Part shown: positions 93 to 8,987 of the stretch, in pieces
How positions within the stretch are numbered: the first letter of the stretch is position 1
How the letters are laid out: the number at the start of each line of letters is the position of its first letter
Source of the DNA: Patescibacteria group bacterium
Lineage (GTDB): Bacteria > Patescibacteriota > Gracilibacteria > Peribacterales > Peribacteraceae
DNA length: 64,000 bases
Direction of reading: 5' to 3'
Assembly (NCBI GenBank): GCA_018814875.1
Contig: JAHIYH010000036.1
Span: 1-64,000 of the forward strand
Translations under genes and position numbers: made by a program
Notes under the pieces: model-generated
Told to the model about the DNA's origin: nothing
Database searches by the model: none
What the model saw: the letters and a program-made list of their open reading frames with translations, nothing else

Positions 93-186
93 GGATAACG
101 TTAGGGATATGAGAAGTTGCGACCATCGGGAGCAATTTGGGTGGAGAAGTCTGCAAGACTTCGTAACTTCATATCCCTTGTTATAT
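93..186 (+). repeat. attC-like recombination site A
   Basis: R'' GGATAAC (93-99), spacer GTT, arm AGGGATATGAGAAGTTGCGA (103-122); inner hairpin GAAGTCT-GCA-AGACTTC (146-162); arm TCGTAACTTCATATCCCT (161-178), spacer T, R' GTTATAT (180-186). 5' arm carries extra GA, as extrahelical bases do in attC. Confidence 0.7.
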
Positions 187-304
187 TCCCCGTAGGGCTG
201 AAATTTAGTGCAACGTCCCGAAGGGAAATTTCAGAGTCGTCGTGTCTATCTAAATATTTTGAATTGCCGCCGCCTTTTTTGTTTCTTTTTTCTAAAAAAG
301 AAAA

Positions 305-1669
305 TTAGGGTGCGAGTTTTTTTGTTTTGAAAATTTTATCGTAAAAAATAATCATTAATATTCCTAAAGGAGAAGTTATGGCAAAGGTACTTTCTTTCAA
401 AAAAGGAAATAAAACTAATAGTAGGATTGTTGGTATTAGAATTGAATAAAAACTTGCGTTTGAAGTAGTTTTTCTAGAATAAATTCCTGCAATAATTGGC
501 GGAACAAAAATTAAAGCAAGATAAGTAACAAGTAATGATAAGGTAATAATATTTGGTATTAGAAAGGCAAATAAAAAACCAACTGTTCCAAATATTGCTG
601 TTATAAGTCTGGCATACAACATTTTCTTTTTTGAATCGTGTTTGCTTTTATCAAATAATCCTCTGTAAATAATCGCCGAACCACCAACTAATAAACTATC
701 AATTGAGGACATAATAACTGCCAAAATTGAAGCAAAACCAATCCCAACAAGAGAAGGAGGTAAAATTTTATCCATTAGTAAAAATATTGCAAATTCTTGC
801 TTAATTCCTGAGAGTAAAATTGATGAAACTAGACCTAAAAATAAAACAATAAATCCCAATAGAATTACAAATGGAATAGAAAGATAAAATGATTTTTTTG
901 CAATTTCTTCATTTTCTGCCGAAAAAATTCTTTGCCAATGGGTTGTATTTCCAAGATATATAAATCCACTCAAAACGATAACACCTATCATCCAACCAAT
1001 ACCACCAAAACCAAAAGGATTTAGGTGTCCTTGAGGAACATTAGATAATAAATTTGAAATTCCTCCAACTTCTGAATAACCAATAAAAGCTAATATTAAA
1101 AAAACTATTAAGATAATCCAAAATTGGATAAAATCTGTAATTATATCAATTTTTAAACCGCCAATTGTGGTATATAAAATAACAACAACAGCTGATAAAA
1201 TTAAAGCGAGTTCATATTCTAATCCAACTAAAACAGAAGCCAAAGAAGCAATAGCTATTGCTTGAACCCCTATCCAAATAGTAAGCAAGAAGATTTGTAG
1301 GATTCCTGTTAAGATTTTATTTTTTCTATCAAACCTCTTAGCGAAAAAATCTACAATTGTATGAGCATCATATTCATCTCCTATAGTTTTTATTTTTTTA
1401 GCCATGATACCCAGAATTAACATTCCTGCAACAAATGAGATAGGCAATGCCAAACCATAAGAAATTCCTGAATTATAAACTTCTGAAACTATGGCAACAA
1501 CTCCTCCAGCTCCAACAATTGTAGCAACAGTTGAAAAAGTCATAAACCATAAACTTGTTTTTTTGTTATTCAAAAAATAAGCATTTAACGATTCTTTTCT
1601 TGAGAAATACCAAGCGACTCCAAACATTAATGCAAGATAAACAAATAAGATTATTAGTGTTGTGTTCAT
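305..1669 (-). CDS. Sodium/solute symporter (SSS family)
   Basis: 454 aa, many TM segments, SSS-like motifs (GGLKIDIITDFIQFW, LSSILLSGIKQEF, SSIDSLL). Confidence 0.85.
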   Translation of the reverse strand: MNTTLIILFVYLALMFGVAWYFSRKESLNAYFLNNKKTSLWFMTFSTVATIVGAGGVVAIVSEVYNSGISYGLALPISFVAGMLILGIMAKKIKTIGDEYDAHTIVDFFAKRFDRKNKILTGILQIFLLTIWIGVQAIAIASLASVLVGLEYELALILSAVVVILYTTIGGLKIDIITDFIQFWIILIVFLILAFIGYSEVGGISNLLSNVPQGHLNPFGFGGIGWMIGVIVLSGFIYLGNTTHWQRIFSAENEEIAKKSFYLSIPFVILLGFIVLFLGLVSSILLSGIKQEFAIFLLMDKILPPSLVGIGFASILAVIMSSIDSLLVGGSAIIYRGLFDKSKHDSKKKMLYARLITAIFGTVGFLFAFLIPNIITLSLLVTYLALIFVPPIIAGIYSRKTTSNASFYSILIPTILLLVLFPFLKESTFAITSPLGILMIIFYDKIFKTKKLAP

Positions 1670-1810
1670 GTTATAAATTTAAAGAATAAATGTATTTATT
1701 AAACTTTCTAAAAACTCGCACCCTTTTTATTATATCCTTTGCGATAGCAAAGACAAATTGTGCGAAGCACTAAGGCGGCAATTCAAAATATTAATTTTCA
1801 CGACGATTGA

Positions 1811-1997
1811 ATATAACGTTTGCGGTTTGTGCGATGTTTGCTGGCTGTATAATGGAGCGACTTGTCCACCGTAGACTCCGTAGCGAAGCGGAGGAGCGAA
1901 GGTGGAAGCGACACACAGCCGCAAAATATGGGAGAGGAGGCGTGCATCCATCCTATTCTTAAAGCACCGCCGACGAACCGCACAACCGCTGTTATGT
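1811..1997 (+). repeat. attC-like recombination site B
   Basis: R'' ATATAAC (1811-1817), GTTT, arm GCGGTTTGTGCG; arm' CGCACAACCGC (1979-1989), T, R' GTTATGT (1991-1997). Extra T in 5' arm; nested internal stems (GGCTGT../ACAGCC, CCACC../GGTGG). Confidence 0.75.
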
Positions 1998-2106
1998 AAC
2001 GTCAATTTTTTACCGTATTTCAAGGCACCTGTAGCTTACGTTCTTTTTGGGGCGGGGAAACAAAAACAGCAACACAGGCATTTTTTTTAAATCTCCAGAT
2101 CATATT

Positions 2107-3060
2107 ATGGTAGACTGCTTTGCAATGATCTCAGATCGATTTACCATTGGGCGCACGACAGTGTCCGCTTTACTCGTTACTGTGGTGAGCCTTCTCATAC
2201 CTTCGCTCTTTTCAGTGATTCTCGAGGTCGCCACTCCCCGCTTCTTTCCCGAGCAATTAAGCCTTCCTTCGACTGCACAGGAAGTGGTGAGCAAGCGCTC
2301 GGAGAAGACGGCAACGTTTGAAATTGAGCCGGGAGAGTTCGCGCAGGTGTCGGGGATTGAGTGGGGAATTTCACCGAAGTGTCAGTCGAAGCTCTGCTCG
2401 GCGATTGAGCCGATTCGCAGTCTTTTGCCAAGTGTTTTTGCAACGACTACGGGACCGAATAGTCCGGGGACGATGACGAATGTTGTGCTCGATGGCAGCA
2501 ATGATAATTGGGATACTGTAGACGGAGCAACTGCAGAAGGTGGGTCGGAGTCACACTCTATCCCTGGGCAAGGCGTTGGCCTATATAGCGATTATTTACA
2601 GGCAACGAATTTTGGCTTCTCAATACCAGCTAATTCAACTATTAATGGGATTGCGGTCGAAATAAAACGCTCAGCTGCAAGCTGGGCCGGTATACATGAT
2701 TTGCACGTTAGGATTGTGAAAAGCGGAATAATACAATCGTCTGTTAACAGAGCCAAACTTGATGCGTGGCCAGATACCTCTGCGTACGCTACCTATGGAG
2801 GTGTAGATGATGTATGGGGGGAAAGTTGGACAAATGAAGATATTGATTCGGGATTCGGAGCAGCCGTTGCGGCAATAGACGATTCAGCTTTTGGTGTAGA
2901 CATCTATGTCGACCACGTCCGTATCATTGTCTATTACACTGAAGCCGTCGCAGAAGAGGTCCCCTTCTTCTCATGGTGGTCGATACCGTTTCTCATTGCT
3001 GGACTCTTCCTGATTCTTTGGAAGGAAGACATGTTTACGAATCATCTGACCTCTATATGA
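2107..3060 (+). CDS. Secreted protein with C-terminal TM sorting-like tail (candidate exosortase substrate)
   Basis: N-terminal hydrophobic signal; C-terminus VPFFSWWSIPFLIAGLFLILWKEDMF (motif + TM + charged); ATGA overlap with next gene. Confidence 0.6.
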   Translation: MVDCFAMISDRFTIGRTTVSALLVTVVSLLIPSLFSVILEVATPRFFPEQLSLPSTAQEVVSKRSEKTATFEIEPGEFAQVSGIEWGISPKCQSKLCSAIEPIRSLLPSVFATTTGPNSPGTMTNVVLDGSNDNWDTVDGATAEGGSESHSIPGQGVGLYSDYLQATNFGFSIPANSTINGIAVEIKRSAASWAGIHDLHVRIVKSGIIQSSVNRAKLDAWPDTSAYATYGGVDDVWGESWTNEDIDSGFGAAVAAIDDSAFGVDIYVDHVRIIVYYTEAVAEEVPFFSWWSIPFLIAGLFLILWKEDMFTNHLTSI

Positions 3061-4034
3061 ACAAAGCGACCACAGTTCAGAAGCGACTCCGTATGTGGTA
3101 TTGCTGCCATGTCATGTTCGTGCGGCTGGCCTGCGCTTTCGGGTTTGTACTCATCTCCATCGCTGTCTTGCGCTCGAATATGCTGGAGCAAATGACAGGT
3201 AGTTCATTCGTGGGTCCGAAGGGGATGACTCCCACGCCGTTGATCGTGCTGGCGACACTCCTTACGCTACTTGGTATACGCATGCGCACTACCGACAATC
3301 AGTTTCCGTCAGCAATGGGGCGGCAGCAGATCGGCATCGGCATTGTGCTTCTTGTCTGTGCCATTGGACTATCGTACTGGGCGACGCACCCGTCACTGGA
3401 ACGGTTCATGGCGATGCATGCGATGATCGCGCAAGATCTTGCAACGAACGGCCCGCTCGTTGCCTCGCTTATTTGGCTGGCACTTATCGCACCGCTCTTC
3501 CCGCTGCTAATACTCGCAATCCCGGCGACACTGTGGATGTGTAATTGGAAATTAATTACAGTCGTAATGCTTGTGTATCTGCTCTATCTCGCATCGGGCA
3601 TAGCGGAAGCGCGGTATTACGCATTCACTGGGCCATGGCTCGTACAGAGTGTCATGCATGTACTTTCAGTGCTCCCGGGATCAACAGAGCTGAATTCCCG
3701 ATGGGACGTCGCATTCGGCGAGTTTCGCGCGACGCTCGGTCCACAGTGCTCGGAGTTTTCCGCAGTACTTCTCTTCCTTGCGCTCTTCATGTGGATTTGG
3801 CACCGCATATCACATGGTAAGCTGCATTCGCTTCTCATGGGCGTCACGCTTGCGATCGTGGGAATGGTGGTTCTCTGGTGCGTGAACGTGCTGCGCATTG
3901 CGGCGGTAGTCGTCCTAGGATCATTTGCGCCAACGCTCGCCGTCTTCCTCTTTCACGGGTCGGTTGGTGTTGTTTTTTTCCTGCTCTTCTTTGCTATCTA
4001 TGCGAGAGTGATGCTGTGGGTTGTGAGAAGATGA
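3057..4034 (+). CDS. Exosortase/archaeosortase-family transpeptidase
   Basis: Polytopic membrane protein with GPQCSEF (Cys), VNVLRIAAVV (Arg), FLFHGSVGVVFFLLFF (His) in the order of the exosortase catalytic triad. Confidence 0.8.
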   Translation: MNKATTVQKRLRMWYCCHVMFVRLACAFGFVLISIAVLRSNMLEQMTGSSFVGPKGMTPTPLIVLATLLTLLGIRMRTTDNQFPSAMGRQQIGIGIVLLVCAIGLSYWATHPSLERFMAMHAMIAQDLATNGPLVASLIWLALIAPLFPLLILAIPATLWMCNWKLITVVMLVYLLYLASGIAEARYYAFTGPWLVQSVMHVLSVLPGSTELNSRWDVAFGEFRATLGPQCSEFSAVLLFLALFMWIWHRISHGKLHSLLMGVTLAIVGMVVLWCVNVLRIAAVVVLGSFAPTLAVFLFHGSVGVVFFLLFFAIYARVMLWVVRR

Positions 4035-4200
4035 CGGTTTCATGTAAAGGAATGCTAGATCTTCCTTAGTCATATCGGAGGATGATGATGACAGATGCGA
4101 TTTGCACGCCTAAAAAAACATCACACAGAAACACAAATATGGCGGGACGAAAAACAAAAGCGTAGTTGGTGCCGCAGGAAGAAGGTAAAAAATTTATGTT

Positions 4201-4352
4201 ACATAACGTTTGCGCTTAGCCGAAGTTGGCAGGCTGTATAATTTGCGCTGAAAGCGCTCACAGCCTGACAATTTGGGAGAGCTGCGCCCGACAGTCCATA
4301 ATCTAAAAATTCAAAAAGGAGGGCGTAGCGAACCGGCTAAGCGCTGTTGTAC
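4201..4352 (+). repeat. attC-like recombination site C
   Basis: R'' ACATAAC, GTTT, arm GCGCTTAGCCG (4212-4222); arm' CGGCTAAGCGC (4334-4344), T, R' GTTGTAC (4346-4352). Confidence 0.75.
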
Positions 4353-4475
4353 GATGTAAAACACCATCCTCCTTATTACTTGCCAGTACACGGTTGGGAA
4401 TGACATATACGCCACCAGCGTATGTGTTGTTTGGGTTGGATCGTAACCGTCCGCGGGAGGGGAAAACAACAAACA
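4346..4475 (+). repeat. Left terminal inverted repeat of RM cassette
   Basis: GTTGTACGATGTAAAACACCATC..CTTGCCAGTACAC..GTAACCGTCCGCG..ACAACAAACAA matches reverse complement of 7357-7442; the left copy carries a ~50-bp extra segment. Confidence 0.8.
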
Positions 4476-4564
4476 AAACAATTACAACACATTTTACTGA
4501 AATGCGCTGCACAGACATACTCGAAGGTCTATGCAAATATGGCTTTTTTTGACAAACTGGTAAC

Positions 4565-6412
4565 ATGCCTACAACCGATTCAGAAGTACACGCTTACAGG
4601 TTCATACTAGATGAGTTAACAAAGAAGAAGGGATGGAAGAAATCTCAGGTTTTGACGCAACAGGAGTGTCATAGAATAAAGGCAATAAAAGATGCAATTG
4701 GTGGGAAGAAGCCAGAGAATGTTGTGATGATTAGCGATAAGGTTTGTTATGTCATTGAAGCAAAAAATGAACGCAAAAAGTTGAACGTTGCTGTTAAGGA
4801 GGCAAAAGAAGATTATGCCGATAGAATAAATGAGCAACAGCACCTTGAGGCTGTATTTATTACTGGCATTGCAGGGAATGAAGAAGAGGGATTTGTTGGA
4901 AGGAGTGAATATTACAGAAATGGAAAATGGGAAACGATTGAAGAAAATGGAGTTGAGGTGACAAGCCTTCTTTCTGTAGCGCAAGTTGATCACATTCAGA
5001 GAACAAAGAATGGAAAGATTGAAGATATTGAGATAACCGAAAAAGAGTTCCATGAAGCAGCAAAAGAAATTAATGGAATATTGCATGAAAATGCAATTAA
5101 CAAGGACTACAGAGCGAGATTTATTTCTGCTCTTTTGCTGGCACTTACAGAGGGTTCATCGGAAATTGATTTGAACGAAATGGATACCAGCGTTTTAATT
5201 GCTGCGATAAACAAGAAGGTGGAAACCATATTGAATAGGCATAAGAAGCATGAGTTTGCCAGATTCATAAAAATAGATGAGCCTTCCAATCAGGATAATC
5301 ATGTGAAGGTTAGAGCTGCAATTGTTAATACGATAGAAAAGCTGCTTTCACTCAATATAAGATCAGCAATGAAATCGGGAAGGGACGTACTTGGTGAGTT
5401 TTATGAGGCTTTTCTTAAGTATGGAAATGGCGCAAAAGAGATTGGAGTGGTACTGACACCACGTCATATAACGCGGTTTGCAGCTGAGGTATTAGACGTG
5501 CAAACGAATGACATTGTTCTCGACCCAGCTTGTGGGACAGGGGGATTTCTTGTTGCAGCTCTTGATGCAGCCAGAAAGAGATCGAAGTCTGATAAAGAAT
5601 TAGAAGTATTCAAAGAAGAAGGGATTTATGGAGTTGAAGAACAAGACCCGATCATTGCTCTTGCAATCGTAAACATGATTTTTAGGGGAGACGGTAAAAA
5701 TAATATGATAGAGGGAAATTGTTTTAATAAGTGGCTTACGGTAGACGACTCGAAAAAGAGATTTTCTGCTTGTTATGTAAAAAATGATTTTGATGGACGT
5801 ATTCCGCCAGTCACCAAAGTATTGATGAATCCTCCTTTTTCGCAAAAATCGAGTAAGAGCAAGGAATACCACTTCGTTGAACATGCTGTTGCTCAAATGC
5901 AGGATGAAGGCTTGTTGTTTGCTGTTCTTCCTATTTCAGTTTTGATTGAAAGGGCAACATTGGAATGGAGAAAAGAGTTTTTGAAGAGGAATACTTTGAT
6001 TTCAGTTGTGACATTTCCAGTAGACTTATTCTATCCGACTGGCACTAATACACTCGGTATGTTTGTTAGGAAAGGCGTTCCGCACAAAAAAAACGAACCA
6101 GTGTTATGGCTGAGAACTTTGCACGATGGATTTGTGAAGAAAAAAGGGAAGAGGGTAAGAAGTAAAAAAGAAAAGGATGACATTCAAGATTCACAAGAAC
6201 TTCTTTTTGATTTTGTGAAGGACTCTGATACGAAAGTAAAAAACATTCCTCAATTTCAAAAGAAAGCTCCGATTGACTTCTCAGACGAAAACTTGGAACT
6301 TGTACCAGAAGCATATTTAGATGACAAAGAGTTGACACAGGAAGAGATTGAACAATCAATGGACATGCTTGTGCGTGAAACAGCTTGTTACTTAATACGA
6401 ACAAAACAATGA
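4565..6412 (+). CDS. Type I-like/IIG restriction-modification protein: HSDR_N-like nuclease domain fused to N6-adenine methyltransferase
   Basis: N-term DKVCYVIEAKN (D..ExK nuclease-like), DPACGTGGFLVAAL (SAM motif I), MNPPFSQKS (motif IV NPPF). Confidence 0.85.
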   Translation: MPTTDSEVHAYRFILDELTKKKGWKKSQVLTQQECHRIKAIKDAIGGKKPENVVMISDKVCYVIEAKNERKKLNVAVKEAKEDYADRINEQQHLEAVFITGIAGNEEEGFVGRSEYYRNGKWETIEENGVEVTSLLSVAQVDHIQRTKNGKIEDIEITEKEFHEAAKEINGILHENAINKDYRARFISALLLALTEGSSEIDLNEMDTSVLIAAINKKVETILNRHKKHEFARFIKIDEPSNQDNHVKVRAAIVNTIEKLLSLNIRSAMKSGRDVLGEFYEAFLKYGNGAKEIGVVLTPRHITRFAAEVLDVQTNDIVLDPACGTGGFLVAALDAARKRSKSDKELEVFKEEGIYGVEEQDPIIALAIVNMIFRGDGKNNMIEGNCFNKWLTVDDSKKRFSACYVKNDFDGRIPPVTKVLMNPPFSQKSSKSKEYHFVEHAVAQMQDEGLLFAVLPISVLIERATLEWRKEFLKRNTLISVVTFPVDLFYPTGTNTLGMFVRKGVPHKKNEPVLWLRTLHDGFVKKKGKRVRSKKEKDDIQDSQELLFDFVKDSDTKVKNIPQFQKKAPIDFSDENLELVPEAYLDDKELTQEEIEQSMDMLVRETACYLIRTKQ

Positions 6413-7356
6413 CAGTAGAATCACTATTTACCATTGGCAATGCAAAATCAAAAGGCTTTGAACAGCACGAAAAAGGCGAAATACCATTTGTTACCAATGG
6501 ATTCAAAAACAATGGGATAGTTGGTTTTGTCGAACCACTGCCACGAGAACGTGTTTTTAAGAAACCTGCTATATGTGTCTCAACATTTTGCGAGGCTACA
6601 GTACATGAGCCACCCTTTTTACCGCGTGGAAACGGTGGTAGCGGCTTAATAGTATTAGTGCCAAAAATAGAAATGACACAGGAAGAACTGTACTACTACG
6701 CTGCTCAGATCAATAAACAGGCTTGGCGGTTTTCTTTTGGGAGAATGGTGATAAATGAGCGTATGGCGAATATTGAACTCAAGCCATTTCACGGTTTGCC
6801 AAAATCTCTATCAATCGAGAATCTTGTTCCAGAATTACCAAAGCGGAAGCCTGTATCAATTACAAAAATGAAAAAGGTAAAAATTACGGATTTGTGCAAT
6901 GTGGATAGAAAATATGCGCCATACATGAATCAGGTTGATGAAGTAAAAGTTGGCACACCGTATGTTACTACAACAGAAGAAGACAATGGTGTTTCAATCC
7001 ATTGCAGTACAAAGCCAAATTTTAAGAAGGATTCCATCACTGTCTCACTTGATGGAATTTGTGGAACGACTTTTTATCAATTTTCTGATTTTGTTTCCGG
7101 TGAAAAAACAGCTGTAATAACGTTGAAAGAAGGACATAATGCATATCTACTTTTTTTAATCGCTGCGCTCATTAGAACTATGGCATGGAGGTATCACTAT
7201 GGTAGAAAGTTGTCTATGGGAAGATTGGAAGAGTTTATTTTGCAACTTCCAGTGAAAGACAATGGAGAGATTGACTTGGTAGCAATCGAAAAGGTGGTAA
7301 AGAACAGTTACGGATGGGAAATTGTTGATGCTCATTTATCAAAAACAAACAGCTAA
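6385..7356 (+). CDS. HsdS-like specificity subunit
   Basis: Two TRD-like halves, overlaps the MTase gene; 'FSFGRMVINERM' and 'YHYGRKLSMGRLEEFILQLP' repeat-type motifs. Confidence 0.75.
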   Translation: MLLNTNKTMTVESLFTIGNAKSKGFEQHEKGEIPFVTNGFKNNGIVGFVEPLPRERVFKKPAICVSTFCEATVHEPPFLPRGNGGSGLIVLVPKIEMTQEELYYYAAQINKQAWRFSFGRMVINERMANIELKPFHGLPKSLSIENLVPELPKRKPVSITKMKKVKITDLCNVDRKYAPYMNQVDEVKVGTPYVTTTEEDNGVSIHCSTKPNFKKDSITVSLDGICGTTFYQFSDFVSGEKTAVITLKEGHNAYLLFLIAALIRTMAWRYHYGRKLSMGRLEEFILQLPVKDNGEIDLVAIEKVVKNSYGWEIVDAHLSKTNS

Positions 7357-7442
7357 AATATACAACAAACAAGGGAGGGCGCGGACGGTTACTCGTAGTG
7401 TACTGGCAAGATAGATAATGATGGTGTTTTATTTCGTACAAC
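7357..7442 (-). repeat. Right terminal inverted repeat of RM cassette, ending in R''-like box GTACAAC
   Basis: Reverse complement GTTGTACGAAATAAAACACCATC..CTTGCCAGTACAC..GTAACCGTCCGCG..TTGTTTGTTGT matches 4346-4475. Confidence 0.8.
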
Positions 7443-7497
7443 TCCTCCTTATACGAAGTATTAGCCAAATAACACCAAAATTCAGAATCTTATACGA
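7437..7497 (+). repeat. ~60-bp direct repeat, copy 1 (flanks recombinase region)
   Basis: ACAACTCCTCCTTATACGAAGTATTAGCCAAATAACACCAAAATTCAGAATCTT vs ATAACTCCCTCTCATGCCTAATATTAGGCAAATAATAACCAAATTCAGAATCTT at 8897-8952. Confidence 0.7.
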
Positions 7498-7540
7498 AAT
7501 ATTTGCGCTTGCTGTTAAGTTAACTTAGCATTCCCCTCCT

Positions 7541-8362
7541 ATGTCTAAAGCAGAAGAGTTCCTTGAGAGGCTGGAAAAAGATTTACGCGTCCGTGGGATG
7601 AGCCCGAGGACAGTGAAGAGCTATCAAAGCGCGGTTAAAGAATACTTCAAATGGAGGAAGGAAAATTTGGAGAAATTGGATGAAGAAAGCATCCGCAATT
7701 TCTTGTTGCACAAAGAGGAGTGCGGTTCGGGTGCGGCTACCAGAAACTTGTCACTCAATGCTATTAAATATTTTTATCGGGAAGTTCTTAATAAAGATAA
7801 TCCCATTCAGATTCGTTCGGCAAAAGAGCCCAAGAGTCTTCCGGTTGTCTTATCTCGCAGAGAGATTGAGAGCATGTTGCATGAAACAGAAAATCTGAAA
7901 CATCGTGTCCTTCTTGCGTTGGCATATGGCGCAGGCTTGCGTGTAAGTGAAGTAATTAGTTTACGCATAAGAGATATCGATCTTGATGAGCGTGTTATTC
8001 ATGTGAAGCAGGCGAAAGGCAACAAAGATCGAATTACGATTCTTTCAGAGAAGGTTATTCCCGATCTTCGTACGCTGATATCTGGAAGAAATTCAAATGA
8101 GTTCATATTTATAAGTGAACGTGGCGGGCAACTTACACAAAGGACTGCTCAGAAAGTATTTGAATCTGCTCTGCAAAAAGCTGGTGTTCAAAAGAAGGCA
8201 ACATTCCACTCATTGCGGCATAGCTTTGCCACACATCTTCTCGAAAATGGAGTTGATGTGAGATATGTTCAGGAGCTTCTTGGGCATGCGAATATCCGGA
8301 CAACACAGCGATATACACAGGTTACAAATCCATGTCTGAAGCGGATTATAAGTCCTTTGTGA
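7541..8362 (+). CDS. Tyrosine recombinase, Xer-like (not IntI-type)
   Basis: SAM-like N-term; R..(GAGLRVSE), HSLRHSFATHLL, LGHANIRTTQRYTQV catalytic boxes; no IntI-specific insertion before HSLRH. Confidence 0.9.
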   Translation: MSKAEEFLERLEKDLRVRGMSPRTVKSYQSAVKEYFKWRKENLEKLDEESIRNFLLHKEECGSGAATRNLSLNAIKYFYREVLNKDNPIQIRSAKEPKSLPVVLSRREIESMLHETENLKHRVLLALAYGAGLRVSEVISLRIRDIDLDERVIHVKQAKGNKDRITILSEKVIPDLRTLISGRNSNEFIFISERGGQLTQRTAQKVFESALQKAGVQKKATFHSLRHSFATHLLENGVDVRYVQELLGHANIRTTQRYTQVTNPCLKRIISPL

Positions 8363-8872: not shown

Positions 8873-8893
8873 ATTTTATAATTTGAATTGTTT

Positions 8894-8955
8894 CATATAA
8901 CTCCCTCTCATGCCTAATATTAGGCAAATAATAACCAAATTCAGAATCTTTATAA
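8894..8955 (+). repeat. ~60-bp direct repeat, copy 2
   Basis: See copy at 7437-7497. Confidence 0.7.
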
Positions 8956-8987
8956 CAGAGAAAGTATGTGGATAGTCCACATAGATC

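Follow-up and report, generated by a model that had tools for sequence, protein, structure and literature searches.

In the genome of a Patescibacteria group bacterium of the family Peribacteraceae (GCA_018814875.1), we analyzed a window of 64,000 nucleotides (contig JAHIYH010000036.1, positions 1 to 64,000, forward strand), near the start of which two plus-strand genes encode a candidate exosortase substrate (2125..3060, with an alternative upstream ATG start at 2107) and an exosortase-family protein (3057..4034). The 311-amino-acid (aa) substrate carries a hydrophobic N-terminal segment (aa 15-33, by hydropathy), which is a candidate export signal, and a body module (aa ~100-275) common to this protein and large proteins of relatives; the substrate (P0001) had no match in Pfam, NCBIfam, PHROGs, or PDB. 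The protein ends in VPFFSWW followed by a transmembrane (TM) segment (aa 279-300), the last residues before the stop codon being VAEEVPFFSWWSIPFLIAGLFLILWKEDMFTNHLTSI, and this C-terminal sorting-type tail (VPFFSWWSIPFLIAGLFLILWKEDMFTNHLTSI, 2959..3057, plus strand) matches our tail profile A4 at 1.7e-17. The substrate stop overlaps the enzyme start in the sequence ATGA at 3057-3060. Both genes lie within a cassette of 2390 bp (cassette 2, 1818..4207), in which an attC-like hairpin (1818-1990) precedes the body with the gene pair. Judged from its sequence, the pair is very probably a dedicated exosortase/substrate system carried as one integron-like cassette.

An earlier note on this DNA, made from the letters alone, had claimed that a polytopic protein with exosortase Cys/Arg/His landmarks starts in the ATGA overlap, and this is what we found: the open reading frame (ORF) at 3057-4034 encodes 325 aa, and Cys231, Arg280, and His300, with NxxR and FHxxxG surrounding them, are invariant in an alignment (A1) of the window enzyme and six relatives. 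The search with exosortase hidden Markov models (HMMs) by which that note proposed to refute the assignment recovered the exosortase/archaeosortase signature TIGR04178 in all seven aligned sequences, with scores of 33-46 bits, above the cut-off, for the enzymes of relatives in five genomes and of 22.5 bits (cut-off, 23) for the window enzyme as a protein, which reached 26.0 bits in a genome search and is the sole TIGR04178 match in its own genome. Hydropathy indicates six clear TM segments in the window enzyme, and a low-confidence model shows more helices (the family has about eight). Relatives of 22-31% identity occur in 5 of 58 other genomes at E <1e-8 (G136, G167, G207, G294, and G308), all in the same GTDB family as the window genome, with a second enzyme copy in G308 (Candidatus Peribacteria LaPlata_bin-3506); a profile made from the seven sequences was positive in 17 of 291 genomes of the class. 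Tblastn gave no match to the enzyme in plasmids, and blastn gave none to the gene pair in phages. The window enzyme matches no named exosortase subfamily (E up to 1), while named subfamily models match some of the seven sequences weakly, XrtX and archaeosortase C being the nearest by such hits. The enzyme tree places the family's four PEF sequences in a single supported clade and leaves the FSWW enzymes unresolved; tail type tracks this tree in part.

The tail next to the enzyme recurs in the relatives. The gene directly upstream of the enzyme ends in P[FV]FSWW plus a TM segment in four genomes (G167, G136, G294, and G308), the ATGA overlap of the two genes being repeated in G136, and in G207 the tail, VPEFSALGL...KKK, belongs to a protein encoded one gene farther from the enzyme; relatives' tails include VPEFS. 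The bodies that bear the tail are an NHL propeller (G308), a Ser/Cys-rich protein (G294), and P0001-like modules in the others, and one tail-bearing body matches a "choice-of-anchor" family; the same tail type sits on partly unrelated bodies. No sorting-tail model, TIGR03024 and TIGR02595 included, matches the window tail, and the signal is probably an undescribed PxFS(WW) variant resembling PEF-CTERM. Where the earlier note had described a motif-TM-charged tail reminiscent of IPTL/PEP-CTERM signals, the motif and the TM segment hold good, but the likeness is nearer to PEF-CTERM, and the charged end is weakly basic, with eight residues (FTNHLTSI) following the stretch quoted there. In G308, an open frame of 39 aa bearing a second tail copy lies upstream of the substrate gene (L034, G308:C118:4400-4462) and is perhaps the remnant of a replaced substrate.

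Profile A4, which was built from six tails of the six enzyme-positive genomes, gave strong matches in all of these (6/6) and in none of the genomes that lack the enzyme (0/53, the best value there being 0.004; Fisher p = 2.2e-8). Since the positive genomes themselves served to define the profile, independent tests matter, and out of sample 6 of 12 further enzyme loci adjoin a gene whose product has a P-E-F tail (G341, G350, G441, G487, G490, and G527); the regular expression behind this neighbor count also matches a few short spurious frames, and the case rests on long genes. A further out-of-sample tail, VPFFPFW, stands on a G335 protein that is not linked to the enzyme. The FSWW pattern found further matches in G188, G310, G356, and G360; those in G188 and G310 were rejected as tails, having neither profile support nor a tail-ending ORF. 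The borderline HMM score of the window enzyme might suggest an unrelated membrane protein that adjoins a TM-anchored protein by chance, but the conservation of the pair, its perfect co-occurrence in relatives, and the out-of-sample tails refute this explanation, which retains next to no probability.

In the window genome, which is 98.8% complete, the pattern and profile A4 each locate a single tail, at the same gene. The genome-wide scan that the earlier note had called for therefore returned a dedicated system, as PMC3237569 uses the term, and not a general one. The converse idea of a general system, in which the exosortase would serve many substrates and the neighbor would be one among them, can point to the two tail proteins of some relatives (G487 and G527) and to a 610-aa protein in G335 (L173, G335:C19) that ends in VPFFPFWALPLVLIGGVWVLKREG (VPFFPFWALP...), was found via its body and not via its tail, and is unlinked to the exosortase of that genome. 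The single tail site and single exosortase of the window genome largely refute this idea, and we hold it to be very improbable.

The borders of the cassette rest on the array around it. The methylase/specificity (HsdM/HsdS) cassette that follows (cassette 3, 4208-7442) has a counterpart of 79% identity in an array of G293, a genome of the same genus, and the homology stops exactly at window position 7442, beyond which the window has attI and G293 has attC. This comparison supplied the junction rule, a boundary directly after AAC, and together with the matching cores it sets the exosortase cassette at 1818-4207. Its cores, GTTATGT (1991) and ACATAAC (4201-4207), match at 7/7 positions inside terminal inverted repeats of ~29 nucleotides (nt), and both 7-base cores match perfectly within each of the three cassettes. 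Hairpins lie at attC-like site 0 (93..186), which together with ~50 bp of cassette body has a 95%-identical counterpart in G254, a genome of another genus, at site 1 (1811..1997), and at site 2 (4201..4352), and 19 attC-like sites from the window and relatives' arrays could be aligned as hairpins with matching cores. A -10-like box, TA[TC]AAT, lies ~36 nt into most attC sites, against 2.5% expected in shuffles, and reads TATAAT in sites 1 and 2 (1848-1853 and 4237-4242); the cassettes may thus carry their own promoter inside attC. A promoter scan of 1818-4207 gave sites no more frequent than in shuffles. The 2.4-kb mobile cassette of the earlier note is accordingly borne out in its extent and in its attC-like hairpins with matching cores, while movement of this particular cassette is something that we infer. 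GC content differs by cassette, at 0.30, 0.50, and 0.39 for cassettes 1, 2, and 3. On the minus strand, cassette 1 (100..1817) carries a gene for a sodium/solute symporter (305-1669). Cassette 3, orthologous to the one in G293, carries an N6 DNA methylase (4565-6412) and a type I specificity subunit (6409-7356); no restriction subunit accompanies these two components of a type I system in the cassette.

Beyond cassette 3 lie an attI-like site (7443..7540), which begins with TCCTCCTTATACGAA directly after the AAC of the junction and has a direct repeat at 7448 and 7489, and, beside it, a plus-strand gene for a XerA-like tyrosine recombinase of 273 aa (7541..8362). About ten relatives share a form of AAC followed by TCCTCCTTATACGAA, with variable sequence on the cassette side. 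The recombinase scored 211.9 bits against TIGR02249 (cut-off, 265), the NCBI equivalog that it passed being XerA, and the insert of IntI1 is absent from it and from six orthologues. IntI is defined by this additional insert (PMC9668308). Given its absence and the XerA equivalog match, we term the array integron-like, by analogy. A degenerate attC pattern was found in 10/18 recombinase-positive and 2/41 recombinase-negative genomes, and the reversed pattern, as a control, gave 1 match in 59 genomes. The long cassette-end inverted repeats and a recombinase without the IntI domain would also suit repeats of the transposon or miniature inverted-repeat transposable element type, in place of integron-like recombination sites. 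This alternative is unlikely in view of cores that match 7/7 pairwise in 3/3 cassettes, hairpins that lie between cassettes, an attI conserved beside the recombinase, a shared cassette that ends exactly at AAC, and the co-occurrence of attC with the recombinase. Integron-like arrays with a XerA-like recombinase lacking the IntI domain were seen across this family and in further families of its class (L134 in G293:C56, L082 in G254, L090 in G280, L091 in G325, and L083 in G322, with L056 and L037 in the window genome itself). A second stretch resembling the attI-like site at 7437 (AACTCCCTCTCAT...ATTCAGAATCTT) lies downstream of the recombinase at 8890-8965, and shortly after the window ends there is a further tyrosine recombinase, different in type (L052, G000:C29:64438-64923).

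Several observations weigh against reading the pair as a dedicated system on an integron-like cassette. For TIGR04178, the score of the window enzyme is borderline (22.5 versus 23), and the C-terminal end of the substrate, WKEDMFTNHLTSI, is weakly basic and has no clear basic cluster, K/R after the TM segment being clearer in several relatives' tails. Profile A4 has the six positive genomes as its source, so that independence is limited to the absences and the out-of-sample cases. AlphaFold models of the pair are poor (pLDDT 61 and 40), and a PDB fold search with them was uninformative, the models being too weak for fold inference. The missing IntI1 insert counts here too, and a hairpin search found no attC beside related enzyme/tail pairs in other genomes, so that no movement of the window pair was observed directly; a single capture from a chromosomal locus may account for its place in the array.

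Our findings lead us to propose that the substrate would be exported via its N-terminal signal, presumably by the Sec route, while its VPFFSWW-TM tail would keep it in the membrane. The exosortase would then cut at or near P-x-F-S by means of Cys231, with Arg280 and His300, and might pass the new C terminus to an envelope acceptor, a lipid or a glycan, which would place the protein at the cell surface, with cotranslation keeping enzyme and sole substrate together. In a rival reading, the enzyme is an intramembrane protease, exosortase-like, that sheds the substrate from a cleavable TM anchor; transfer and hydrolysis are not told apart by sequence, and the cassette contains no gene for an anchor lipid or glycan. 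We nonetheless regard shedding as rather unlikely, since the signature and the Cys/Arg/His triad are those of a family in which the archaeal member studied, the haloarchaeal ArtA, has its conserved Cys as active-site residue and is modeled as transpeptidase-like (PMC7157517). At the level of the array, the XerA-like tyrosine recombinase would join cassettes at AAC/GTT between the attC-like hairpins and the attI-like site. A broader view, that a distinct Peribacteria integron-like system, with a XerA-type recombinase lacking the IntI domain and promoter-in-attC cassettes, shuttles complete surface-display modules of an enzyme and its only substrate between species, is tentative, and we would give it slightly less than an even chance.

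Patescibacteria mostly live on other cells, and their surface decoration is largely open. A self-contained enzyme and substrate could equip a reduced genome with a new anchored surface protein in a single step, and a single-substrate pair makes the match between enzyme and signal directly testable. Three features appear to be new here: the variant of the signal, its occurrence in Peribacteria, and its carriage on an integron-like cassette. The literature searched, which covers few subscription journals, yielded no paper with both exosortase and integron in its text and, going by titles and the beginnings of abstracts on the candidate phyla radiation (CPR), Patescibacteria, or Peribacteria, no report of integrons in Peribacteria.

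Among known kinds of system, a dedicated exosortase system bearing a PEF-like tail comes closest. With the exosortase/archaeosortase family (TIGR04178; PF09721 EpsH), the window pair shares a polytopic enzyme, the signature region with Cys, NxxR, and FHxxxG, and a partner tail made of a motif and a TM segment, but the window protein stands outside the named subfamilies, and its relatives fit the subfamily models weakly. Like PEF-CTERM (TIGR03024) and PEP-CTERM (TIGR02595), the tail has a short P-E-F or P-x-F motif and then a TM segment at the extreme C terminus; it differs in its VPFFSWW signal and weakly basic end. Its array shares with bacterial and archaeal integrons (PMC9668308) the attC-like hairpins, an attI-like site, a tyrosine recombinase, and exchangeable cassettes, and differs from them in a recombinase without the IntI-specific domain, in the genes of cassettes 2 and 3, which read towards attI, and in the -10-like box inside attC. 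Pairs of a sorting enzyme and its dedicated target form a class that is already known, and as in rhombosortase with its single GlyGly-CTERM target and the Gram-negative sortase with an adjacent LPXTG target (PMC3237569), one enzyme and one target are encoded by adjacent genes; here, in contrast, the enzyme belongs to a different family, and the pair is found in Peribacteria, on an integron-like cassette.
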